From the NCBI GenBank assembly GCA_001001205.1, contig LCKE01000025.1:1-34057 (forward strand): 34,057 nucleotides of DNA, written 5' to 3'. Under the pieces are notes generated by a model, which made no database searches, was not told the origin of the DNA, and saw only the letters and a program-made list of their open reading frames with translations. Below are positions 11,118 to 31,515 of the stretch, one piece after another (positions within the stretch are counted from its first letter, which is position 1; the number at the start of each line of letters is the position of its first letter). The translations under genes were made by a program, and so were the position numbers. This DNA comes from Parcubacteria group bacterium GW2011_GWF2_45_11 (GTDB taxonomy: Bacteria > Patescibacteriota > Patescibacteriia > UBA1558 > UBA10009).

Positions 11118-12287
11118 CTATTTCCCCATTTTTTTTCTGATAAAAGTGGGGATGTCCAGTTCTTCTTCCTGTTTGGTTTTTGGAGGCAAATCAACTTTGT
11201 CGGCATCTTCGGCCTTGCTTGGTTTTTTGGAGAATAAACTTTTAGCCACGACCGTGGCCTTATCTTCCACCGCTTTATACTGGGGGTAAGCGTAACGGTC
11301 TTCTTGTCTGGAGCTTTCCGGTTCGGCTTCGCTACGGGCGGAATTAAAACCCGTGGCAATAACCGTAATTTTTACCTCGTCGTTAAGGGATTCGTCAATG
11401 ATGGCACCAAAAATCACTTTGGCGTTGGGATCAACGGAAGAGGTAATCACTTCGGCCGCCTCATTAACTTCATGCATTGATAAATCGGTGCCGCCGGTGA
11501 TGGTAAACAGCACCCCTTTGGCCCCCTTGATTGATAATTCCAAAAGTGGGCTGTCTATGGCCGTCCTGGCCGCTTCCACAGCCCGGCTTTCACCGCTGGC
11601 TCGGCCAATGCCCATCAAGGCCGAACCGGCCTCTTTCATAATGGCCTTGACGTCGGCAAAATCAACGTTAACCAATCCGGGAATAGTGATTATTTCGGAA
11701 ATACCCTGAACCCCCTGCTTCAGCACCTCGTCCACGATGGCGAAAGCGTCCAGCAGGGAAGTTTTTTTATCAATCACCTGCAAAAGCCTGTCGTTAGGTA
11801 TGGTAATAATGGTATCAACTTTATCAATCAGATTGTCCAAACCCCGCTCGGCGATGCTCTTTCTTTGAGCGCCCTCAAAAGAAAAAGGCTTGGTCACCAC
11901 CGCCACGGTTAAAGCGCCGGCCTCCTTGGCGATATCAGCCACAATCGGAGCCGAACCCGTGCCGGTGCCGCCGCCCAGGCCGCAGGTTAAAAAAACCATG
12001 TCGGCCCCTTCCATGATCGTCCTGATTTCTTCTTCGCTCTCTTCCGCCGCCTGCGCGCCCAGTTCCGGATCCATGCCGGCGCCCAGGCCGCGGGTGGTGG
12101 CTCGGCCGATATGCAGTTTATGAGTCGCTTCATTATTATTTAAAGCCTGCGCGTCGGTATTGACGGCGATAAATTCAATGCCCTTGAGTTTAGACTTGAT
12201 CATCCGGTTACCCCCCAAGCCGATAACTTTTATTTTTGCAAAGGTTTCAATATCCGGTTTTATTTCTATGGATTTAGATTTTGCCAT
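11118..12287 (-). CDS. ftsZ: Cell division GTPase FtsZ, with shortened T1 loop
   Basis: A 389-residue tubulin homologue that forms the division ring. Most signatures are canonical: A-V-N-T-D-A-Q-A-L at 41-49, the T4 loop G-G-G-T-G-T-G at 105-111, the Phe-Ser-Phe-Glu-Gly stretch near 135-139, the T7 catalytic loop N-V-D-F-A-D at 207-212, a disordered linker from about 317, and a conserved C-terminal peptide ending D-I-P-T-F-I-R-K-K that normally binds FtsA and other tethers. The oddity is the first nucleotide loop: I-G-L-G-G runs straight into N-R-M-I (21-30), whereas FtsZ proteins have G-G-G-G-x-N-A-V before this helix. Six residues (18 bases, around 12207-12215) are missing in frame. This is either a real deletion affecting GTP binding or an assembly fault. 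It is downstream of ftsA, the usual order. Confidence 0.95.
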
Positions 12288-17841: not shown

Positions 17842-20800
17842 TTAATCCGCCGGGGTAGTTAGCGGCTCAAAATTAGAGTTGCCCACAAACGGCCAATGAC
17901 TCCAGGGACAATAATAATATCTAGGATTAGATAAAATTATCTGAGCGTCAGGCCCGCCGCTAAAGTTTATTTCGATAGTGCCGGTGTTGTTAGCACCCTG
18001 CTGACAAACAGTATTGGTATTGCCACTCGGATTTTCCTGCAAATCAATAATAAAATCGGTAACTAAATTATTAACCGGAGTTACAATACCTTGACTAATA
18101 TCATTATATTTCAAAGCTACTTCATCTACCGGAATAGCCCCGGCAATGGCCTGATACATTGAATTAAGTTGAGCGGCATTTAAAGTAGCGTAAGCCCTGT
18201 TAAAAACATCATTCTCATTTTGCCATTCGCAATCAATACCGCAGCCAGACTGGCCGTCGCAGTCCTCAAATTGAGCGTAATTTACAGTAGCGCACTGGGT
18301 AACACCGTCACCGCATGTGCCATTAGTGGCATCCCGACAAATATTACCACCGCAAGTACAGTTGGATGGCACTTGTTCGGCTTTACTAGACAAACCATTC
18401 ATATAAGCAATTAAAAGGTTATCATTGGTTAAAGCGACCGTAAAAATGTCAAAGCCATTGTTTCTCAAAGCGTCTGCTTCATCCAAAGCCTCATGGTCGT
18501 TACTAAAGTTGCCATCTGTCATAAATATAACAATTTTATTCTGCACTCCTCCCCAATCCAAATCAGAGGTAATGGAGCCAAAAGCCTGATCATGCCAAGT
18601 GTTACCTAAAGTATTGGAATAAGCATTAACAAAATCTTTTAGCTCTGATTTTTCATCCAAACCTCTAAAATCTGAATCCAGACTGACGATATCACCATAC
18701 GAGATCAGCGCCACCTGAGCCGAAGGGTTGGTATCAAACAGGGTATCCAAAGCGTTACCCGTACCGGCGATAGCTGTTTTAAGCATTTGCATCGTAGAAC
18801 TTGGGCCTGATCCCATGCTACCTGACCTGTCCGAGACAAAGACTATGCCTGTGGAAGCGCCGCCCACATTATCTATTGCCATATCCACCAGCAAATTACC
18901 ACTCAGCTTACATGATGGCAAAGTGACCGAAGTGCTTTCCCCGGCATGCAGAGTCACCGGCCAGTTATCAAAATCATTATCCTCAATCACAAAATGATCC
19001 AAATACCCCCAATCAGCTTCACCGTTAATGAGATCACGGGTACAATGCCAGTCCATGGAACAAGCCGCGTCACCGCAAATAGCCGTACCATAATCGGCCG
19101 GCAGAGAGGTATTTAAATTATAACCTTCAACCAAATCACGGTTAGCCTGGGTGTTAAGCTGATCGGGTTCAGGGCAGGCCAAGCCGCACTCGCCGCAGTC
19201 GGTAACGCTGGTGTTTAAATTGGATTCGCAAGCACTATCGCCGTCGCAATCCGCCCACGGCGGCTGCAAACAGCTATAAGCGCAACTGCCGACGTTACAG
19301 GCGGTGCCGGTTTGCGCCGGACCGGAATGGATGACCTCGTCAACGTAAAACTCGGCGGCGCCATCAAAAGAATAAACGAATATTTCGGCGGAGTTATAAC
19401 CGTTGGCGCCGCCGGCGCTATTACTGGTGGCCAGCCGGTTCTCCAGTTTAAACCAGCCGGTTTGGCCCGCGGGCGAAACCCAATCGCTTTGCGGCAAACG
19501 GTCGGTGCCCCAAAAAGTTAAAGCCGCTCTGCCGCTGACCACGTAAACCCAGACCGAAAGATCATAAGTTGTTAAAGGCTCATAAGAAACATCCTGCCAA
19601 ATACCCTGACTGCCTCCAGTTGCGGTAATATGCACGGAATAACTGCCATCATGAACGTGCTGGCTGACAATTTCATAAGCAGCTGGGGGGGCTGGGTTGA
19701 CGGTTAGTTGCCAGGGACTTAAATAACCCGTTTCAAATGAAGTATTGGCAATAAACTGCAATGGGCTTAGGCAACTGTTACCGCAAAAGCCGCAGTTATT
19801 GGCATCGTTTAAATAATTGGTTTCACAATCGGCCGGAGGATTTTCACAATTCAGATAATCGCTATAAGGATCGCAGGCATAACCGCAACTGCCGGAAACG
19901 CAGCTGACAATGGTGTAATCGCTATACAAAGGATCAAATTCGGCTCTACAATCATTACCACAGGCACTGCAGTTCTCGGGATCAGAAGAAATCTGAACTT
20001 CACAGCCGTCATCATCATCATTAAAAAGATCACAGGCGCTAAAGCCGTCCTCACAGCCTGTCACCTGGCAGCTGTTGCTGCAAACGGTATTCGGCGGGCG
20101 GTTAGCCCCGTCGCACTCTTCGCCGGGTTCAATGGTGCCGTTGCCGCAACTGCCGGTATAAGGCGCGCCGCCGCCGGTACAATAAACGCGGCACTGTTCG
20201 TTATGATCTGCCGGCCGGCAAGCCGGATTACCACTAGCGCAATCCCAGGCTCCCAGACCGTTGGCACCATCACACTCTTCGCCATAATTAATATCCACCG
20301 TCCCGTTGCCGCAGTAGCCGCCCAAATCTTCGCAGGCCAAACTGCAATCATATTGATTGTTGAGGTTGTTACCCAAGCCAAAGCCCTGGGCGCCGATGGG
20401 CGCCGAAGTGTCACAGCCTTCGCCAGCATCAACCAAACCGTTACCGCAGTAGCCGCCGCAATAAGCCGGATATTCGCCCACGGGCTCAAACCACTGGCAG
20501 TTATCCTGGCAGCCTAAAATCTGCGGATTAGCCCAATCATAGCCCAAGGGGCACCAATTATGATGCTGGCCGGGCTCGCATTCTTCCGTTGGCGGTTCTA
20601 CCACGCCATTGCCGCAGGCCTGGCCGATAACCGTTTGGTCACAGCCTGCTACCTGGTCCGGGCTTAAAATCAAATGATCGGTATTTAAGAAAACGTAGCC
20701 GCTGTTATTCTGCGGCTGCCAAACCTCAGCCACCCCCCCCCCGGCGTAAGGCATTTCCATTTTGGCGGATAAAAAGTAAGTCGGCACGCCGTTAGTTAAA

Positions 20801-23800
20801 GGCCCGTCCTGATCCAGCTGATATTGATAGCGGTAAAAATAAGAGGCGGCATCGCAGGCAAAAGCTCCCTGCTCGTTATTAGCGGAAGGGTTCCAACAGG
20901 TGTTAGGATCATAGCCGCAAGCGGCATCCTGAGGAACCAAAGAGACATCGTCAATATAAAACTCGTTACCGGTAGCCGTACTGTAAGTTAAGACACTGAT
21001 TGCCTGATCCGGCGATTCATCATTGGTATCAATTTCCGTTTGCAATTGATACCAGCCCGTCTGATCAGCCGGAGTGGCAACGCTGACGTTATCACCGTAT
21101 TTTAATTGCGCCTGGCCGGAAACTACGTAAATCCAGGCTGAAAGGTTATATAAAGAATCTTCCGCCAAACTAACCGGTTGGCTAACGCCCGCGCCGGCAG
21201 TATTACTATACAGAATCTGCAATGATTGTTCTCCGGACTTGATATAATCAGCCTCGGCGTTAATGATCCGGCTGGCTCCGCCCTCGGCTGTCCAACTCAG
21301 AATATCACTTTCAAAGCCGGGGTTGATTAAATTAACGGTACAGGCCAAACAGCCGTTAAAATTATTAAGCGGATCAACGGGCAAATCAGTACCCACGGCT
21401 TGGCCTAAAGTCTGGTTCCAGGACGGCCATTTGGAGGTGCTCATGCCAGGCAAATAACTGCCGGCCGCCAAGCTGGGATAATTACTTCTTAAAACAATAC
21501 TGTCAACAAAAAATTCGGCCGGCCCTTCATGAGATCTGAGATAAAGTCCGTTATCATAACCGTTGGCTTCAAGAGCGGCGCCGATAGTTTGTAAAACATT
21601 ATGGAGCTGAATCCAGCCGGTATAATTTAGCGGGCTATACCAGCCGCCATGATCATTGCCGTAAAAAGTCAGCTGGACTTGGCCGGAAACAACGTAAACC
21701 CAAGCCGACATATCATAATTGGTATTTGGTTCCAAAAGCATCATTTGATAAATACCTTCAGTATCAGCGTCAGCGGTGATATGCAATGATTTGCTCCCAC
21801 GTTTAACTCCGGTAAAATCTGTATTAACCTCAACTACAGGGGTATTTTCAATCTGCCAGTTATCTAGCCCTTGTTCAAAATCGTTATTTTGAATTTTGTC
21901 CTGATGACTCAGGCTGTATTGATCAAGACTTTCCTGCATGGTTGAAAGGCCGGCCAGGCGTTCAAGATCGTTGGTAATATAATCCTTAAAATAAGGATCC
22001 TGAACATTAGTATTAAATTCCAAATTTTCCGCTAACCGGTTAAAGATATCAAGAGTGGTCTGGCTGGCGCCCGAATTGTAGGAAATCAGAAAAACATTGG
22101 TATAGGCCTGAGTAACATTATCGCCGCCGTCAAGGTTAATGGTGGTGCCGGCCACGTAAACGGTCCGGCCGTCCTGAATGGCCGGATAACCGTCTATGGT
22201 CAAATTGGCTAAGGCGCCCTGCTGAGCAACGGGAATATTCTTTTTATACCAGTCGGCCGGGCTTAAATGATAATAATTGCTGTAAACCCTTAAACCGATA
22301 ATATCGTCGGAGACGGCAACGGGTATTAAATATTCTTTAAGCAAATCATCCTGCGGCCCGTCATAAGCATTGCCGGCGCTTGAGGTAATGACCCAGCCGT
22401 CGCTCCCCACCTGGCCTAAGTCGGCGCCTTCATAAATGGCGGGCAAATCATCCTGCGTGCCATAATCACCGTTATCGCGGCAGTAATGCAAAGCAAACTT
22501 AAAACCCGTATGGGGATTATTTTCGTCATAATACCTTAAATCAGCATTTTGATTATAAGACGGCCAGGGATTTTCGCATAACTCAACCACGGCTACGCCC
22601 GCATCGGACAAATTCTCGCGGTTATACCAGGGCGGGAAAACCGCCTGGGCGGTAATATCAGTTTCGCCGTTATTGTTAGCCGCCAAAACGACCGAGGAAT
22701 CATTGGCAAAATCGGCGCAGTCGGGATAATAATCCTCAAAAACAGAACAATCGGCCGTCAGGGCGATACCGGTATCTTTGGAACTCCACTGCCAGTCCCA
22801 TTCATAAACACCCGGGATTGGACTTAAAGCCTGGCTACCCTGCGGCGCGCTGGCATAGCCGGTCGCCTGATAAACTTTATCAACATCGCCAAACTGATCG
22901 TAATCTTCACCCTCATAAAGATTATCAGCCGGATTATCATGGCTAGAAGTAAAGGTCCAGCGGTTATCGCCCGTTTGCGCGTTGGCGGTTACGGCCACAA
23001 AACTCAACTCGCACACATCCTCGCCGGTGCCGAAATAATAAGCATAATTATCCCCGTTGTTCGGATTAACCAACTCCAAACCGTTAAGGCTCTTAAGGCC
23101 GTCAGCGCCGCCTAAAACCAAAACCCTGATCAAGGCCTCAGCCGGCAAAGGCCTGGTTAAGTTAAACCTGGCTTGAGCGGTCCCGGCAACATGGCTGAGC
23201 GCCCAATCGCCGTAACCGCTTACAGGACACCAGTAGCCGCTGGCGGGCAGGATAAAAATTTCTATTACCTCATTAGCGGCATACGCCCGGCCTAAAAATC
23301 TGTTAAAAAGGTTGCCGAATAAATCCGGCATAAAATTATTGATAAAGCGGGCAATCAACGTTCTGAAAATAAGGGTTTTGCCGGACAAAGGCGATTGGCT
23401 GTCAGACAAAGCAATCTGCTCGCAAACGCCGCTTAAAGGCAACTGAGCCGTCTGCCAGGCGGGCATATAGCCACGGTCAGTCTGGCTCAAAGTATTATTA
23501 TTTTGGGAGCTGTCCTCAAGCTGGTTGCCGTTGCCTTCATTCATTTCCCAAGCGGCAATCAAAGACGCCTGCAACTGACCCCCAACGCCGAGCGGTTCAT
23601 TAGACTGCTCCTGAATCAAACCGCTGATATTCAGCGGCAAGCCCACGGCAAATTTATATAACCGGAACGAGGCCAAAGAACCGTTAAAAGATGTCGGTCC
23701 GGGTCCGTAAGCGCCAAGACCGGCGTCTTCATTATTGGATAAATCGCCCACGGAACTGATGATAGCGGACGAATCATCAACCTGACCGTCAATATAAAAT

Positions 23801-23883
23801 CTGGCCAGGCCGTCACGATCGGCCGTTAAAACAAGGTGATGCCAGGCGTCATCATTCACCGTCCTCACGGAAGTAAAAGCCAC
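17842..23883 (-). CDS. Giant surface protein, C-terminal half (frameshifted): LamG, lectin-like, Cys-rich and vWA domains
   Basis: A 2013-codon ORF opening with a GTG but starting mid-domain, so it is read as the second part of the gene upstream. Its first 80 residues complete a LamG domain (D-A-W-H-H-L-V-L-T, R-F-Y-I-D-G). Three carbohydrate-binding-like jelly-roll modules follow, each opening F-E-x-G/S-x-x-x-x-W, at about 660-800, 850-980 and 1378-1518. Four C-G-N-G-x-(V/I)-(D/E) cysteine-rich repeats lie at about 1082-1282, and G-C-E-V…C-x-x-C-G-N-x-C segments of the type common in myxobacterial surface proteins come after. A von Willebrand A domain (about 1675-1835) has an intact MIDAS, D-R-S-G-S, and M-T-D-G. 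No C-terminal membrane anchor or sorting motif is seen. A run of ten G encodes Gly-Gly-Gly near residue 1049. Likely roles are adhesion to host cells or polysaccharide. Confidence 0.88.
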   Translation of the reverse strand: MAFTSVRTVNDDAWHHLVLTADRDGLARFYIDGQVDDSSAIISSVGDLSNNEDAGLGAYGPGPTSFNGSLASFRLYKFAVGLPLNISGLIQEQSNEPLGVGGQLQASLIAAWEMNEGNGNQLEDSSQNNNTLSQTDRGYMPAWQTAQLPLSGVCEQIALSDSQSPLSGKTLIFRTLIARFINNFMPDLFGNLFNRFLGRAYAANEVIEIFILPASGYWCPVSGYGDWALSHVAGTAQARFNLTRPLPAEALIRVLVLGGADGLKSLNGLELVNPNNGDNYAYYFGTGEDVCELSFVAVTANAQTGDNRWTFTSSHDNPADNLYEGEDYDQFGDVDKVYQATGYASAPQGSQALSPIPGVYEWDWQWSSKDTGIALTADCSVFEDYYPDCADFANDSSVVLAANNNGETDITAQAVFPPWYNRENLSDAGVAVVELCENPWPSYNQNADLRYYDENNPHTGFKFALHYCRDNGDYGTQDDLPAIYEGADLGQVGSDGWVITSSAGNAYDGPQDDLLKEYLIPVAVSDDIIGLRVYSNYYHLSPADWYKKNIPVAQQGALANLTIDGYPAIQDGRTVYVAGTTINLDGGDNVTQAYTNVFLISYNSGASQTTLDIFNRLAENLEFNTNVQDPYFKDYITNDLERLAGLSTMQESLDQYSLSHQDKIQNNDFEQGLDNWQIENTPVVEVNTDFTGVKRGSKSLHITADADTEGIYQMMLLEPNTNYDMSAWVYVVSGQVQLTFYGNDHGGWYSPLNYTGWIQLHNVLQTIGAALEANGYDNGLYLRSHEGPAEFFVDSIVLRSNYPSLAAGSYLPGMSTSKWPSWNQTLGQAVGTDLPVDPLNNFNGCLACTVNLINPGFESDILSWTAEGGASRIINAEADYIKSGEQSLQILYSNTAGAGVSQPVSLAEDSLYNLSAWIYVVSGQAQLKYGDNVSVATPADQTGWYQLQTEIDTNDESPDQAISVLTYSTATGNEFYIDDVSLVPQDAACGYDPNTCWNPSANNEQGAFACDAASYFYRYQYQLDQDGPLTNGVPTYFLSAKMEMPYAGGGVAEVWQPQNNSGYVFLNTDHLILSPDQVAGCDQTVIGQACGNGVVEPPTEECEPGQHHNWCPLGYDWANPQILGCQDNCQWFEPVGEYPAYCGGYCGNGLVDAGEGCDTSAPIGAQGFGLGNNLNNQYDCSLACEDLGGYCGNGTVDINYGEECDGANGLGAWDCASGNPACRPADHNEQCRVYCTGGGAPYTGSCGNGTIEPGEECDGANRPPNTVCSNSCQVTGCEDGFSACDLFNDDDDGCEVQISSDPENCSACGNDCRAEFDPLYSDYTIVSCVSGSCGYACDPYSDYLNCENPPADCETNYLNDANNCGFCGNSCLSPLQFIANTSFETGYLSPWQLTVNPAPPAAYEIVSQHVHDGSYSVHITATGGSQGIWQDVSYEPLTTYDLSVWVYVVSGRAALTFWGTDRLPQSDWVSPAGQTGWFKLENRLATSNSAGGANGYNSAEIFVYSFDGAAEFYVDEVIHSGPAQTGTACNVGSCAYSCLQPPWADCDGDSACESNLNTSVTDCGECGLACPEPDQLNTQANRDLVEGYNLNTSLPADYGTAICGDAACSMDWHCTRDLINGEADWGYLDHFVIEDNDFDNWPVTLHAGESTSVTLPSCKLSGNLLVDMAIDNVGGASTGIVFVSDRSGSMGSGPSSTMQMLKTAIAGTGNALDTLFDTNPSAQVALISYGDIVSLDSDFRGLDEKSELKDFVNAYSNTLGNTWHDQAFGSITSDLDWGGVQNKIVIFMTDGNFSNDHEALDEADALRNNGFDIFTVALTNDNLLIAYMNGLSSKAEQVPSNCTCGGNICRDATNGTCGDGVTQCATVNYAQFEDCDGQSGCGIDCEWQNENDVFNRAYATLNAAQLNSMYQAIAGAIPVDEVALKYNDISQGIVTPVNNLVTDFIIDLQENPSGNTNTVCQQGANNTGTIEINFSGGPDAQIILSNPRYYYCPWSHWPFVGNSNFEPLTTPAD
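20733..20742 (-). repeat. Ten-base poly-G tract inside the giant surface-protein gene
   Basis: Ten consecutive G on the coding strand encode part of A-G-G-G-V-A. Long G-tracts within reading frames of surface proteins are classic slipped-strand phase-variation sites in other bacteria. In the sequence as given the frame is intact through the tract. Confidence 0.8.
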
Positions 23884-26800
23884 GTCATCACCCCGTCAGC
23901 GTAAAGCACTAAAGCCCAGCCGGTTTCGCCCCATTTTTCAAAAATAGGGCTTTGCGCACTCGCGGCGGTTTTTAGCCAAACCTCGGCCATAAAATCGCTG
24001 GTGCCGACGTTAAGACTCTCGGCTGCGCCGGAGTCAATAAAGACAAAATCGCCTGCTCCGTCAAAAGTCAAAACCGTCTCGTCAACTAACGGTACATTTT
24101 CGCTATGGTAACTCACGGAAATGGTTTGATTATTAACGGTCTGTTCATCCAAATATTTATCAAAATCAAGGCTGACCAAAGAGTTAAGGCAAACGTCGGT
24201 GGCGTAATTTTCAGGCGCGGTCTCAATCACGCTCGGACCGGAAACTTCGGGCATAACCGTCAGTTCGGCCCCGTTGGTTATTGTCTCAATCGTTGCTTCC
24301 ACCCAGGCGGAACCCGCGGCCTGGCTTAAAGTGTCAGCGTTATTGGGTGGTAAGGGCGATAAAGCGGCGACGTTCTCGTTGGTTAACGACCAGTGATTAA
24401 CCGGGTTGGATAAAGCCAAATCAAACTCATCGTAGCCGATGGCTTCCCAATTCTGTTCCTCACCAATAAAATTTTGGGTGCTGGTTGGGCTTAAGTTAAC
24501 ATAATCAACCTGGCACATTTCATCAACCGTGGTAAAAGTCCAATTACAGCTTTCTGCAAGACTATCCCAGTCGGCCGGACAACCCTCTGCGGTCAAGCGC
24601 AAATCCCCCGAACTAATGCCGTTGGCACCGCCTTTAACCGTAACGGTATAAACAATATCCGGCGTCCATAAATAAGTGCCGCTAGCCGGCCGCAAACTGA
24701 CAGCCTGGCGTGAACCGTTATGGGTAATCAGCAACAGCCGGTTAATCTGCGCGCCAGCCGAATCATAAGTCACCTGAAAATTACCAGGGTTAATGGCTGA
24801 CTCGTCCAAACCCAGATTGAATTCCGCGCGGGCGAGCGCGTTTAGGCAGACGTCATCACCAGCGGGCATATAATTCTCCAAAGTCAAAACTTGCGGCGTG
24901 CCAACGGTCACCTGGCCGTTAGTCCCGCTGTTATAAACGTAAGCCCCGCCCGACCTGATAGCTGATCTGATATAGCTTAAGCCGGGATTTTCGGCCGTCA
25001 CCGTAGTTTGGCCGTAAGCGCCCAGAGAAACATCGGGATCAACAGAAGCAATATTGTCGCCGGTTGAAAAAAATGGCGGCACATCATTGATATTTAACTC
25101 GGAACTCCAGTTCCAAATAGTCTCAGCCGGCAAGAGTAACAACTGGCAGGTCGCGCCGCTATAACCGTTGGCAACGTAATCATAAGTTTGGTCCACCGTC
25201 AAAGTCTGGTTGCCCGGGCTGACATTGATGCTATCAATCTGGCACCAAGTGGCGTCGGCTCTGGTTCTAAATTGCCAGGACCGCATGCCGATTAAGGGTA
25301 CCCCATCGGCGCTTAAAACGTCCTCGGCTAAACGAATTTCAAACCAGGCATCGGTCGCTAAAGCGTCAGCGGGAGTATAAACGAATTCTATGGCCGTTAG
25401 ATTGCCGCCGGGTACAATCTGATCATCATCTTCGGCCACCAAATCAGCGCAACCAAAATCGTCGCATTGATATAAGCCGACATTGCCGGTAGTTAAAGTG
25501 GAAGCGTCCATGGGAATATTAAACCGGGCATAGACGGCGGCGTTAGCGCAGACCGACTGCTCATTAGGCCAAGGGGTGGGACTGCGGTTAGAACCGTTAC
25601 TGCAACTGTAATCCATGACAATATGGGCTTCCGGCGGAATGATATTCAAAGGCGCCTCTGTCATCGGGAAAGGCGGCACATCGGAAATTTGCGCCGCCAC
25701 AAAGGCGACCTCCGGCTGTTCAACCAAACCGGCGCCATAAAGCCAGTTATGGGAATTGTTTAAAACGTCCTGATCCTGCAGTTGAGCGTCAGCGTTATCA
25801 GTGCTCCAGTCCCAGTTAAAAGTATCGGCACAAATGGCGCAATTGCCGCCATTAATACCATAAGAATTATAGGCCGCTGTCTGAAACCTAGGGATAGGGC
25901 CAAAGTTGGAATGCTGAGTTCTGTCCGGCGGATAAATGCTCACCTGATCGGCCGAACATAAGCCGTCTGCTCCCTGGGTTTTGAAACGCCAGACATAAGG
26001 CTGGGCCAAAGGAATTCTTTGAATTTCCTCATTGAGCGGATTTATAAAAATACCCTTTAGGTTCGTGGTCAAAGTAACCTGATACCAGGTATTAGGCGCC
26101 AAATTATTAACCGGATCAAAGGTCACGTATTCGGGACTGGTGTCGGTAAAGGTTGTTTCGCCCCAAGGCCAGTTGATTTGCAAACAACCGGCCTGGTCAA
26201 AGACATCTGCCAAGCCGCAATTTTCTAAAATCACGTTAACATTGCTAAAAGTGCTGTTATCCATGTCAACATTGAATTCAACGCCGAAGTTCTGATTTAT
26301 AAAAATCGTATCATAGCCGTTCCAGGGATATTTAAGAGGCGAAGGTGACGCGTTGCCGCTGACGCAACTGCCTCTTTCCACAACCTCGGGCACCAAACAA
26401 TCCCAGCAGGTGGTAAACTGCCACTCATAAAAGGCGGCATTTTCGGGTGAGCCCGGTTCAACCGATGTGGCCACGTTAAAATCAACGGCATTACTGGATT
26501 GACCGTTATTATTAACGCTGACGTTGCCGGTGACTGTGCCGGCAGGCACGGTCACGTAGATTAAATTGTTGTTACTGCCGGCCTCAGGCGCCAGATTGTC
26601 TTGATTGGAAAAATCAACAACGGCGCCGCTAAATGGTTCGCCGGCAATTTCCACGATCGTGCCAACGGGCCCCTCATTGGGATTAAGGCTGCAGATGCCC
26701 GGCGTAACCTCCAGACTTTCGTCATAAATAAAATTGTCTGACGAGACTGCCTCCTGGCCGTCTTTGATAACAACCAGCGGCGCCCCGCCTAAAATCACTT

Positions 26801-29039
26801 CGCCTGATTCAATGAACGGCACCTTGACCACGATCTGGTTATCGGACCAATAATTAGTGCCGCACTCCTGGGGAAATTCAAAATTACCTTCCTCAAAACC
26901 GTTATTGGTCAAAAATCTGACGGTGCGGACATCGGTTTTTGTCGCGCCAAAGCCTGAGCCGTGAATGGTGACGTACTGGCCCGGCGCGCCGGCGGCCGGT
27001 TCAAAATAGCTTACGGATAACGCCTCGGTCTCCTCGCCCAAAACATTAAAGTAAATACCGTTACTGCTCCCGCCTTCCACCTCCACTCTAACCGGCGCCT
27101 GTCCGGGTTGTAAATTTGGCACCTCGGCCGTCACTTCATCATGATCTAAGAAAGAGGACCAGACAGGATTGGCGGCCAGGTTCTCGCCCGGCTGATCGCC
27201 AAAATAAACGCTGCGATTTAATCCGTCACCGAACTGCGTGCCAAAAACGGTGAACTCCGACTCAAACAGGCCTGCGTCAGGCGCTAGGCCGCAGACCCCC
27301 GGATAAACCGCGTTGGGATCTAAAGTGAAATTTTCATAAATATTACTGGATAGTGTTTGACGGGTGACAACACGCCAGCCGCTTAAGCCAGCGCCGCTGG
27401 CTGACTCAGGCACCTCCACGATTATTTGATTGTCTTGCCAGGTTACGGCACAGCCTGCCACAGCCGGAGCCAAGGCCTCCGCAACATGGCCGTTGGGGTC
27501 GGTAAACCACACCTGGCCCGGCTCAGATCCAAAATGCTGGCCTAAAATGGTCACCCAGTTGCCAGGCGCCCCGTCTGCCGGATCCACCGAGAAAATAACC
27601 GGCAAGGGTACGCAATAACAGGTAGCAACATCGCAAAGATTGGAAGAACAGGCGGCGTTATCCGGGTTGACGCATTCACCGCCCAGACCAAGCTCGCCGC
27701 ACAATTCACCTTCGCAAACCGCGCAATCGCCACCGCAATCCAAACCGGTTTCGCCCAGGTCGGGATCTATCTGCCCGTTAAAACAATGGCTAGGCCTGAT
27801 CATCACTTCAATCGGATCCGACCAGGCATCATGGCCGGCGACATCATAAGCCCTGGCCTGCAAAACGTAAGTTTGATTAGTTTGATAACTGTTAGTCTCC
27901 CAATAAACAAAACCTTCGTACGATAAAGGGGGCGGCGGAGTGGGGCTGGCCGTATCCATATAGCCATTTTCTAAATAAAAATCTATTTGACTCAGACCGC
28001 CGTCATCTTCGGCATAAGCGTACAGTTCATACAGTTCATCGGCGGACAAGTTTACTCCATTGTATAAAGCGGTAGACGGATTGCCTATCACCTGAGTCAG
28101 ATTGACCGGCTCAGGCGGAGTAACGTCCACCAGCTCGCCGGTGGTAAATTCCGCTTCACAGACGCCGAAGCCGCAATTAACCGTCTGGCCGTCAAGGCTC
28201 ACTAAGGCAACGCCTTCCGTATCGCTCACTCCTATCTTATAAAGCTGATTTTCTTCCAGGCAAAATACGCCGGGAAAGCCAGGACATTCCAAGGCGGGCG
28301 TAAAAGTCACCAAACGGTCAGCCGCTAAAGTTAAAATGCCGGCGGTCTCTTCATAATTGCCGTCGCCTAAATCTTTTAAAACCCTCAGGCTTTGAGGAAA
28401 ACCGTCAGTCGGATTAATGACGCTGGCCGGATCAACATGGCGGTTAAAGGTTACCTGAACAACCACATTTTTAATATTCAAATTGCCCTGGGGACTGATT
28501 GACTGGGCGATGAAACTGCCGGACGGATCAAAATTACTGTCGCACGGCAGATTGGTGATGTAACAGCTGCCCCACTGATTATTAAGCTGACATTCGCGCT
28601 GGCGCTGGCAATCCCCCAGATTGTTGCAAGCCTCAATGGCGCCCGGCGGCTCGCAGGCTTCGCCCGGCACGGTCGCTTCGCTGATCTGGTTGATAATAAA
28701 AGTCACAATGGCAAAGGCTGAAAAAATAATAACCAAACCGATAACGCCGTTGACTAAAATCTTTTTAGCGAAGGAAATCTTATCGGCTTCGCCGCCCGAA
28801 CTCAACCAAACATAACCGCCGTACAGCATAACGATTAGGGCGATTAGTCCTAAAAAGCCCAAAAGTATCTGGATGATCCTGACGATCAATTCTTTTAAGT
28901 CAGTTGTGCCTAAACCGGTATCGCCCGCAACTTCCAGGCCCAAGGAGGCCTGGGCGCCGACCAGCTGCGGCATAACCAAAAAACTTATGATGAAAAATAA
29001 TAAGCCGATAAAGAAAATTTTTTTGGTCTGCGCTGTCAT
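23865..29039 (-). CDS. Giant surface protein, N-terminal half (frameshifted): T4SS-pilin head, Ig-like, IPT/TIG and LamG domains
   Basis: A 1724-codon ORF, the head of a protein that would be about 3730 residues with the frameshift repaired. A signal peptide (1-29) and two membrane helices (about 53-76 and 93-118) form a VirB2/TrbC-like 'T4SS_pilin' domain nearly matching that of the next gene upstream. A Cys-rich stretch follows (132-165). Then come SbsA-type (Big_5) Ig-like domains at about 172-300, 900-1040, 1130-1270, 1385-1500 and 1597-1660; four IPT/TIG-like domains between about 477 and 850, with G-x-P-G-x-x-V-T-I-x-G openings; and the first half of a LamG domain from 1654. The frame ends in unrelated residues just after Y-A-D-G at a GGGG run (23894-23891), while the rest of the LamG domain continues in another frame. 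Probably exported and membrane-held by its pilin-like head. Confidence 0.9.
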   Translation of the reverse strand: MTAQTKKIFFIGLLFFIISFLVMPQLVGAQASLGLEVAGDTGLGTTDLKELIVRIIQILLGFLGLIALIVMLYGGYVWLSSGGEADKISFAKKILVNGVIGLVIIFSAFAIVTFIINQISEATVPGEACEPPGAIEACNNLGDCQRQRECQLNNQWGSCYITNLPCDSNFDPSGSFIAQSISPQGNLNIKNVVVQVTFNRHVDPASVINPTDGFPQSLRVLKDLGDGNYEETAGILTLAADRLVTFTPALECPGFPGVFCLEENQLYKIGVSDTEGVALVSLDGQTVNCGFGVCEAEFTTGELVDVTPPEPVNLTQVIGNPSTALYNGVNLSADELYELYAYAEDDGGLSQIDFYLENGYMDTASPTPPPPLSYEGFVYWETNSYQTNQTYVLQARAYDVAGHDAWSDPIEVMIRPSHCFNGQIDPDLGETGLDCGGDCAVCEGELCGELGLGGECVNPDNAACSSNLCDVATCYCVPLPVIFSVDPADGAPGNWVTILGQHFGSEPGQVWFTDPNGHVAEALAPAVAGCAVTWQDNQIIVEVPESASGAGLSGWRVVTRQTLSSNIYENFTLDPNAVYPGVCGLAPDAGLFESEFTVFGTQFGDGLNRSVYFGDQPGENLAANPVWSSFLDHDEVTAEVPNLQPGQAPVRVEVEGGSSNGIYFNVLGEETEALSVSYFEPAAGAPGQYVTIHGSGFGATKTDVRTVRFLTNNGFEEGNFEFPQECGTNYWSDNQIVVKVPFIESGEVILGGAPLVVIKDGQEAVSSDNFIYDESLEVTPGICSLNPNEGPVGTIVEIAGEPFSGAVVDFSNQDNLAPEAGSNNNLIYVTVPAGTVTGNVSVNNNGQSSNAVDFNVATSVEPGSPENAAFYEWQFTTCWDCLVPEVVERGSCVSGNASPSPLKYPWNGYDTIFINQNFGVEFNVDMDNSTFSNVNVILENCGLADVFDQAGCLQINWPWGETTFTDTSPEYVTFDPVNNLAPNTWYQVTLTTNLKGIFINPLNEEIQRIPLAQPYVWRFKTQGADGLCSADQVSIYPPDRTQHSNFGPIPRFQTAAYNSYGINGGNCAICADTFNWDWSTDNADAQLQDQDVLNNSHNWLYGAGLVEQPEVAFVAAQISDVPPFPMTEAPLNIIPPEAHIVMDYSCSNGSNRSPTPWPNEQSVCANAAVYARFNIPMDASTLTTGNVGLYQCDDFGCADLVAEDDDQIVPGGNLTAIEFVYTPADALATDAWFEIRLAEDVLSADGVPLIGMRSWQFRTRADATWCQIDSINVSPGNQTLTVDQTYDYVANGYSGATCQLLLLPAETIWNWSSELNINDVPPFFSTGDNIASVDPDVSLGAYGQTTVTAENPGLSYIRSAIRSGGAYVYNSGTNGQVTVGTPQVLTLENYMPAGDDVCLNALARAEFNLGLDESAINPGNFQVTYDSAGAQINRLLLITHNGSRQAVSLRPASGTYLWTPDIVYTVTVKGGANGISSGDLRLTAEGCPADWDSLAESCNWTFTTVDEMCQVDYVNLSPTSTQNFIGEEQNWEAIGYDEFDLALSNPVNHWSLTNENVAALSPLPPNNADTLSQAAGSAWVEATIETITNGAELTVMPEVSGPSVIETAPENYATDVCLNSLVSLDFDKYLDEQTVNNQTISVSYHSENVPLVDETVLTFDGAGDFVFIDSGAAESLNVGTSDFMAEVWLKTAASAQSPIFEKWGETGWALVLYADGVMTWLLLP
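23891..23894 (-). other. Frameshift site joining the two giant ORFs
   Basis: The coding strand reads GAC-GGG-GTG here. Adding one G (GGGG to GGGGG), or slipping back one base, gives D-G-G-D-D-V-A-F-T and joins the two halves of one LamG domain without loss. The N-terminal frame instead meets TGA at 23867-23865. So the sequence shows a one-base deletion in a homopolymer: a sequencing or assembly error, a true mutation, or a phase-variable site. Confidence 0.85.
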
Positions 29040-29090: not shown

Positions 29091-30872
29091 TTACGGACAA
29101 TCACCGCCCGAACCTGGTCCGCAGGCGGGATAAAAACAGTTCTGATAAATATCGCGGATGCCGGAAGTTAATCTGGGATTATAGGTGGTTAAAGGATCTA
29201 GATAGGGCGCATAGGTTCTTATGACCGCTTGATCGCGGTTTTCGGCAGGCACGTTTTCCTTATAGACGATAAAACCGGCCGCGGGATAACAGGCGGGATC
29301 AGAGGGAAACTCCTGGCCGCCGGAACAAACCTGTTTAAAGATGGCGGCATTTTCCGAATTCAAACTGCTACTCATTAATTTGCTATTGAACGGCGCTTTA
29401 ACTTGGCGGTTCAACGGCACCAAAGCCTCATCGTCTGCGGGCTCTAACGGTTCGGTCACATAAGGCGGTTCCAGCCACATCTCAGCGTTGGTCTGAAAAT
29501 TCCAAAAATAATTGTCAGCCGGCGGGCCTTCGGGCGTGCCGTTAACATCGGCGCCCAGCTCGCCGCCGCCATCAAGCGAATTGCCGGCCGCGTCGGAAAC
29601 GCCGGATAAAGGATTATAAGGATCAACTTCAGCCGCCACGGCCGTCACGTGCAAACTGGCGGCGGGTGGCAAACAATAAACTTCTTCGCCGCAGGAGTTC
29701 TGAATCGGCTGATTAAAATCATCCAAGCAGGGGGTATTAGCGACAAAAGTCACGGTCCTGAATTGATTGCTGATCACAAATTCACCGCCGACATACTTGG
29801 TCAAGCCGCCGTCCTGATAAGCCACACGCAAATTAGTAAAAGTATCGGGTATAAACTGCCCATTACCGTCCACCTCCGCCAAACCGATGGTGGCGGCCGC
29901 GTTAACCGCTTCGCTAAAATCAATTTGCACGACGGCATTCATGTAAACGTCGTTGCCTAAAGGAATGACTTCCGCCACCTGCGGCGGAGTCAGATCCAAA
30001 AAGTTGCTGACTTCAAAATACCAAGTATAGCCCCCCAGCAAGAATGCCGGCTGGCCGTTGGCTTTATCAATATTTTCCGTCAAGGTCACGGCATAACCGG
30101 TCGGGCCGGTGGCGTCGCCTAAATGCAAAAATTCATTTTGACCATAAGGATCAAAAACAAAATTTTTGTTATCCGGCGACATCGCCACCACCTGCTCCGT
30201 CTCTAGGGCCGTTTGATCGCTGAGATTGAGGATGCTGACAAAGGGATTATCCGGCGCCGTGCCCGCCAAATAACCGCAAGCGATGGCGAGGCCGGCGCAC
30301 TCGGGCGGAACCTGGCCGTAAGGATTGACGATGACGGTTTCCGTATCCAGTTCTTCCTTAAAGCCCACCATGATTAACGTATTGCGGGGGATTTCATGAG
30401 CGCCCGGCTCCGGATAAACGCTATTTAAAATACCTCCGCCTAAGGCGTTGCCGGAAATATCAAAACCGACGCTGATGGCCTGGCCGTCCCCACCGGCACC
30501 GAACATGACTTCATTAAATTTATTAATCACATAGGTGACGATCCCAAAAGCAGATAAAATAATAACCAAACCGATAACCGCATTAAGCAAAATGCTCTTG
30601 GCTTTGGAAATCTTCTCCTGTTCGCCCTCTGAGGTCAGATAAATATAACCGCCATAAATGATGATAATCACCGCCACTAAACCCAAAAACCCCAGAAGAA
30701 TCTGAATAACTCTCATGATCAGGACTTTAAGATCAACCGTGCCCAGACCGGTGCCTTCAATCGATTCCAGGCCCAATGAGGCCTGAGCTTGAACGGACGG
30801 CGCCAGATAAACAAAAACAGCCGCTGTCAGCAAAATAACTACCAACAAAGCAGCTGTTTTTTGAGCATACAA
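29091..30872 (-). CDS. Pilin-headed surface protein with SbsA/Big_5 Ig-like domains
   Basis: About 593 residues from the chosen start. A signal sequence ending V-Q-A-Q-A is followed by a VirB2/TrbC-like T4SS_pilin domain with two membrane helices (about 45-68 and 85-110). The motif A-S-L-G-L-E, the G-T-G-L-G-T-x-D-L-K-x-L-I segment and the I-Q-I-L-L-G-F-L-G-L helix are almost the same as in the giant protein. Three SbsA-type Big_5 Ig-like domains follow, opening near Y-P-E-P-G-A-H-E-I-P, P-P-Q-V-A-E-V-I-P and P-P-Y-V-T-E-P-L-E-P, then a Cys-containing tail. The frame is open to 31085, overlapping yqeY, but that extension runs through a GC-rich hairpin. The TTG at 30872 has an SD-like GGAAAG 11 bases upstream and yields a normal signal peptide. 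An ATG at 31031 is the alternative. Likely a smaller partner of the giant protein. Confidence 0.88.
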   Translation of the reverse strand: MYAQKTAALLVVILLTAAVFVYLAPSVQAQASLGLESIEGTGLGTVDLKVLIMRVIQILLGFLGLVAVIIIIYGGYIYLTSEGEQEKISKAKSILLNAVIGLVIILSAFGIVTYVINKFNEVMFGAGGDGQAISVGFDISGNALGGGILNSVYPEPGAHEIPRNTLIMVGFKEELDTETVIVNPYGQVPPECAGLAIACGYLAGTAPDNPFVSILNLSDQTALETEQVVAMSPDNKNFVFDPYGQNEFLHLGDATGPTGYAVTLTENIDKANGQPAFLLGGYTWYFEVSNFLDLTPPQVAEVIPLGNDVYMNAVVQIDFSEAVNAAATIGLAEVDGNGQFIPDTFTNLRVAYQDGGLTKYVGGEFVISNQFRTVTFVANTPCLDDFNQPIQNSCGEEVYCLPPAASLHVTAVAAEVDPYNPLSGVSDAAGNSLDGGGELGADVNGTPEGPPADNYFWNFQTNAEMWLEPPYVTEPLEPADDEALVPLNRQVKAPFNSKLMSSSLNSENAAIFKQVCSGGQEFPSDPACYPAAGFIVYKENVPAENRDQAVIRTYAPYLDPLTTYNPRLTSGIRDIYQNCFYPACGPGSGGDCP

Positions 30873-30975
30873 TTTACGTGGCGCTTTCCAGAATTTTACA
30901 ATCTTTCTGCAAAAATTTATCCAGACAATCTCAACGGCGGATGATTGCAAAACTCGCGAGAAAACGCGGGATTTA

Positions 30976-31010
30976 TCCAGCCCCGCCCCGGTTAAGCTCG
31001 GGGTGCTGGA
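30976..31010 (-). other. GC-rich hairpin upstream of the pilin-headed protein gene
   Basis: TCCAGC…CCCCG and CGGGG…GCTGGA arms (30976-30990 with 30999-31010, one or two mismatches or bulges) form a strong stem between yqeY and the next gene. There is no T-run, so it is a candidate processing or repeat hairpin in the 5' leader. It argues against the protein start at 31085. Confidence 0.45.
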
Positions 31011-31062
31011 TTTATTTACAAAAAATTGCATGGAAATTTTTAGATTTTGTTTTAACCGTCCT

Positions 31063-31515
31063 TTAGGCAAGCAATTCCTTGACAATCGGGCTCACCCGGG
31101 CGCCATCGGCCCGGCCAGCGAGCTCGGACATGACGAGTTTCATCGCCCGGCCAAAATCTTGCTGCCCCAAAACGTTATCCTTAATAATCTTAGTAACCAC
31201 GTCCTTAATGGTTTGATCATCAAGCTCGGCCGGCAAATACCGCTGAATGACCGAGAGTTCAAAAGCTTCCTGAGCCTCTAAATCCAGGCGGCGACCCTGA
31301 TGATAAACCTCAATGGCCTCCTGCCTTTTTTTAGCTTCTTTTTTTAAGACTTTAATGATATCTTCTTCTTTCAGTTCAGCCCTTTTAGCGATTTGTTCAT
31401 TTTTAAGGGCTGATTTGAGCAAGCGATAAATATCAATTTTTTTTTGATCTTTGGCCTTGGCTGACTCTAAATAATTATTATCAAGGCGCTGCGATATTTC
31501 AGTCATAAATCTCAA
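31063..31515 (-). CDS. YqeY/GatB-tail domain protein
   Basis: A 150-residue all-helical protein of the YqeY family, related to the C-terminal tRNA-binding tail of the amidotransferase subunit GatB. Recognisable parts are A-K-A-K-D-Q-K-K-I-D-I-Y-R-L-L-K near 18-33, Y-R-x-L-K-S-A-L-K-N-E, the K-K-E-A-K-K-R-Q-E-A-I-E segment, the R-Y-L-P-A-E-L hinge near 92-98 and the G-R-A-M-K-L-V-M end. The molecular role of free-standing YqeY is not settled. The TTG at 31515 has an SD (AAGGA, six bases upstream). The ATG at 31506 is the alternative with a poorer spacing. It follows rpsU by nine bases; the rpsU-yqeY pair is a widely conserved arrangement. Confidence 0.9.
   Translation of the reverse strand: MRFMTEISQRLDNNYLESAKAKDQKKIDIYRLLKSALKNEQIAKRAELKEEDIIKVLKKEAKKRQEAIEVYHQGRRLDLEAQEAFELSVIQRYLPAELDDQTIKDVVTKIIKDNVLGQQDFGRAMKLVMSELAGRADGARVSPIVKELLA

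Follow-up and report, generated by a model that had tools for sequence, protein, structure and literature searches.

The giant pilin-headed gene that appears split in the window, the 34,057-nucleotide stretch of DNA analyzed here, is probably a single multidomain surface gene of ~3.7 thousand residues interrupted by a draft-assembly error and not by a switch; on the comparisons described below, we give this explanation a probability of roughly 0.86. The window corresponds to contig 25 in a 1.14-Mb genome of 69 contigs with an estimated completeness of 93%. The two halves, which stand in the window as separate open reading frames (ORFs), are now identified as parts of the same giant pilin-headed surface gene.

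The N-terminal part, ORF1 (positions 23865-29039, minus strand, 1724 aa), contains a putative VirB2/TrbC-type pilin-like membrane head, three TIG domains, Big_5 Ig-like domains, and the first half of a LamG domain. By Pfam, TIG was matched in three stretches and Big_5 in two stretches along ORF1, and the ORF1 N terminus scored 26.3 bits against the pilin model PF18895, whose cut-off is 26.6. The C-terminal part, ORF2 (positions 17842-23883, minus strand, 2013 aa), contains the second LamG half, an Ig-like region, a conserved core, three CBM_4_9 domains, a Cys-rich region, and a VWA domain. Since ORF2 is open over 2013 codons and keeps its conserved domains, it is not decayed. It lies in the -1 frame relative to ORF1, and the coordinates confirm the 19-base overlap between the two ORFs that was noted originally. 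Examination of the ORF2 N terminus revealed no signal peptide, and scans for promoters and terminators yielded nothing useful at the ORF1/ORF2 junction. Directly upstream of ORF1 is a smaller pilin-headed gene (positions 29091-31085, minus strand, 664 aa as called), which scored 38.0 bits against PF18895, above the cut-off.

The giant gene was compared across 53 related genomes. The three closest relatives with strong matches, of the same family and designated G001, G002, and G003, carry an uninterrupted single ORF over both halves (3533, 2599, and 3014 aa, respectively), the matches to ORF1 and ORF2 falling in its first and second halves. Single ORFs, of 2725-4426 aa, also occur in several genomes elsewhere in the order and class. 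The original prediction had proposed looking in relatives for a continuous ORF of similar length, about 3730 codons; such ORFs were found, at 2599-4426 aa. It was also right that annotation would wrongly give two proteins here, the relatives carrying one ORF. Because these relatives have one uninterrupted ORF over both halves, the window gene is one gene that is broken in the window sequence: by homology, ORF1 and ORF2 are one gene, broken within one LamG domain.

The unbroken pilin-headed giant genes of G001 (JAHISB010000005.1), G003 (JAHITV010000024.1), and a Komeilibacteria genome (MHKS01000005.1) resemble the window gene in their VirB2/TrbC-like head, TIG/Big_5 array, and conserved core, but differ from it in being single ORFs. 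As in the window, a smaller pilin-headed gene precedes the giant gene in G001, G002, G003, and most others examined, and this 5' partner measures ~520-690 aa in most intact relatives. LamG is unbroken in the 3533-aa ORF of G001 and is absent in G002 and G003. In G003, it is missing as a block, such that the sequence corresponding to ORF1 residue 1649 joins that corresponding to ORF2 residue 162; since the domain is missing there as one unit, LamG is an accessory module. In a further genome, G021, the C-terminal match (L009/L026, C29 21714-22880) holds one in-frame TGA.

The interrupted LamG module (Laminin_G_3, PF13385; positions 23630-24100, minus strand, limits approximate), intact in G001 and absent in G003, allowed the break to be placed. 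G001 is the closest relative with the module preserved, and its intact domain matches one frame of the window up to ~23910 and the other from ~23892, with a joint E value of 2e-35 and ~40% identity on either side of the break. Frame-aware alignment to G001 put the frame switch at 23891/23892, within the GGGG run at 23891-23894 on the minus strand, where the LamG homology changes frame and which is the most likely lesion junction. ORF2 alone aligns to just positions 70-144 of the 151 in the Laminin_G_3 model, but when the frames were joined with unknown residues, the match extended over model positions 10-144 of 151 and scored 57-58 bits (gathering cut-off, 27.6). These results bear out the earlier claim that the break falls inside a single LamG domain. 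The first Pfam score had located the frame change downstream of the G run, at TGGCTTTTACTTCC; a further Pfam test and the frame-aware alignment overruled this placement in favor of the G run, with residues missing there. Weak matches of LamG to a clostridial neurotoxin receptor-binding model were set aside as most likely reflecting a shared concanavalin-like fold.

The frame-aware alignment scored 262 if nine residues of the reference were taken as missing and 259 if none were; therefore, the size of the lesion is not fixed by alignment alone. The Pfam LamG score was 49-50 bits when one or two unknown residues were placed at the junction and rose to 57-58 bits when seven or eight were placed there. 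Because of these domain scores and the other lesions in the same assembly, a loss of ~20-27 nt is favored, although not proven, over the loss of one G, the exact number of missing bases being one that we infer. Thus, the original suggestion that one G added to the GGGG run would mend the domain named the right site, but its single-base size was not upheld.

Lesions of this kind were found elsewhere in the same genome. A 733-kb sample of the genome was compared with the proteins of the closed relative G002. Within the 331 kb of homologous sequence, frame breaks were present in seven conserved genes: rplL (L050 ~1166), polA (L051 ~15713), recJ (L100 ~12710), typA (L112 ~12603), rfbB (L038 ~11388), a subtilase gene (L046 ~365), and a glycosyltransferase gene (L106 ~575). 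NCBIfam matches above cut-off were obtained for ribosomal protein L7/L12, DNA polymerase I, RecJ, TypA, and dTDP-glucose 4,6-dehydratase; the subtilase and glycosyltransferase matched only related models, below cut-off. Most of the lesions are losses of ~16-49 nt. The typA lesion is a single base in an A run, and therefore the lesions are not all of one kind. No second copy of rplL or polA was found in the genome. The only copy of ftsZ, which lies in the window itself (positions 11118-12287, minus strand), lacks 18 nt at a GGGGGG run (12211-12216), and with them six residues of the GTP-binding loop, as judged against G002 and solved FtsZ structures; this gap is almost certainly an assembly loss. 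The reverse test, on 332 kb of G002, revealed no broken gene, its one candidate translating like an antisense-rRNA ORF, so that the comparison, a small one, stands at seven genes versus zero. Five N-runs (54, 22, 21, 5, and 1 bases) show that the sampled assembly contains gaps.

Two features expected of an assembly artifact were observed: intact copies in relatives, and an excess of lesions that includes essential single-copy genes. Since no cell could dispense with rplL, polA, the FtsZ loop, and the rest together, an assembly cause is probable, and the broken genes of this assembly (ftsZ, rplL, polA, recJ, and typA) should not be taken as biology. Pseudogenes created by assembly are well documented, with low read coverage among their main causes (PMC11017572). 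In that study, too, intact genes appeared frame-broken through sequencing or assembly faults; however, metagenome-assembled genomes were left out of it, and the lesions here are mostly losses of 16-49 nt.

Under the assembly-error explanation, an uncultured lineage of Patescibacteria, related to the Komeilibacteria/Uhrbacteria/Falkowbacteria assemblage, would carry one giant gene, and the frame break at ~23891-23894 would be one of several short losses (mostly ~16-49 nt) scattered in coding sequence. We infer that the break would find no support in sequencing reads. The protein would most likely be made whole in the organism, its N-terminal VirB2/TrbC-like helices holding it in the membrane and its TIG, Big_5, LamG, CBM, and VWA domains lying outside the cell, where they could serve contact or adhesion. 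The giant protein is thus likely anchored in the membrane and exposed at the cell surface for contact or adhesion, the adhesive role being suggested by its domains.

A recent, real mutation in some or all cells, with ORF1 made as a truncated 1724-aa protein, is unlikely. In its favor, ORF1 is intact and retains its pilin head, variability is common among surface genes, and both halves are still open, as would be expected soon after a mutation; a real, very recent frameshift in a nonessential surface gene would look identical at the locus, and the genomes searched included no other member of the species. However, the same assembly also breaks the indispensable rplL, polA, and the FtsZ loop, and for that reason an assembly cause already explains the site at 23891-23894. 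It is also improbable that a fraction of the population truly carries the break, truncating the giant pilin-headed protein after 1724 residues; if so, cells would differ in display of the carbohydrate-binding and VWA part. The original prediction had raised a switch between a pilin-headed short form and a full form. A phase-variable switch, in which changes in the length of the G run would turn the full-length protein on and off, agrees with a break at a GGGG run, yet a run of only four bases is too short for slipped-strand mispairing, and the LamG scores favor a lesion of more than one base. On the same strand, exactly four consecutive G occur 49 times in the window, and longer G runs occur 23 times. 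Because the run is so short, a slippery heptamer is lacking, and ORF2 has no signal peptide, a switch is unsupported; it is also undercut by similar lesions in essential single-copy genes of the assembly, and we regard it as very improbable. Programmed -1 ribosomal frameshifting could in principle join ORF1 and ORF2 into one protein, given the -1 frame of ORF2 and the 19-base overlap. This mechanism is scarcely credible here: the ORF1 frame contained no slippery heptamer of the form X XXY YYZ over the ~200 bases leading up to its stop codon, a single frame encodes the protein in G001, G002, G003, and other relatives, so that the break is not conserved, and LamG appears to miss residues at the junction.

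It is likewise highly improbable that ORF1 and ORF2 are each a gene in their own right, the arrangement seen in Falkowbacteria-like relatives, and that translation of ORF2 starts at its own GTG or by reinitiation. The C-terminal part is indeed separate in ~50 related loci, and ORF2 begins with GTG, with GGTGAT just upstream. This motif is not informative, since only 46 of 341 long ORFs of the genome show any Shine-Dalgarno-like 4-mer. The earlier statement that ORF2 has no signal peptide held, and the accompanying one that it lacks a start context was roughly right, the GGTGAT before its GTG being a chance occurrence. As a separate gene, ORF2 would have to start inside LamG, a beta-sandwich domain, and without a signal peptide; in the loci that are split, by contrast, the boundary falls immediately ahead of the core domain, ~1.57 kb downstream of the break, and a signal peptide is present on the second gene product. 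In a core-region tree, the window gene also clusters with the fused genes of G001, G002, and G003 (95% SH-aLRT). The natural split boundary corresponds to approximately window position 22314, and because it is ~1.57 kb away, the natural split does not explain the break.

The distribution of the two arrangements was traced through the conserved core domain (ORF2 residues 520-635; positions 21979-22326, minus strand). A search of genome contigs with ORF2 alone gave no match; a 267-aa query that includes the core gave matches in 226 of the 286 genomes of the class, and a core-domain alignment used as query found 68 loci. In named genomes, the pilin head and core occur in one ORF at 13 loci (some in the same genomes as in the set of relatives), and the core opens a separate gene with a signal-peptide-like N terminus at ~50. 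A pilin-headed gene lies directly upstream of the separate core gene in 21 of these ~50 loci, at a spacing of -31 to about +40 nt. In the core-region tree, the fused and split states require one change, on a weakly supported branch. As judged from these loci (L120-L187), the family is one fused gene in Komeilibacteria/Uhrbacteria-like lineages and two adjacent genes in Falkowbacteria-like ones. Such fused and adjacent-gene forms across Patescibacteria lineages are easily mistaken for artifacts by automatic annotation.

VirB2-like pilins, and arrays of them, occur widely in Patescibacteria (PMC12102498). The arrays described there are tandem genes with PF18895/PF04956 matches, and the window likewise has two adjacent pilin-headed genes. 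That study treats VirB2 as a small pilin, whereas the head in the window continues into surface domains totaling thousands of residues.

Two further core-gene loci were observed. A core gene that clusters with the split Falkowbacteria-like genes (L173 547-3294) lies on a contig assigned to a Helarchaeota (Asgard) bin; its Helarchaeota placement is probably bin contamination. At another locus, the core gene is present twice, in closely related copies (L137 9869-10804 and 13914-16754), which suggests a recent tandem duplication.
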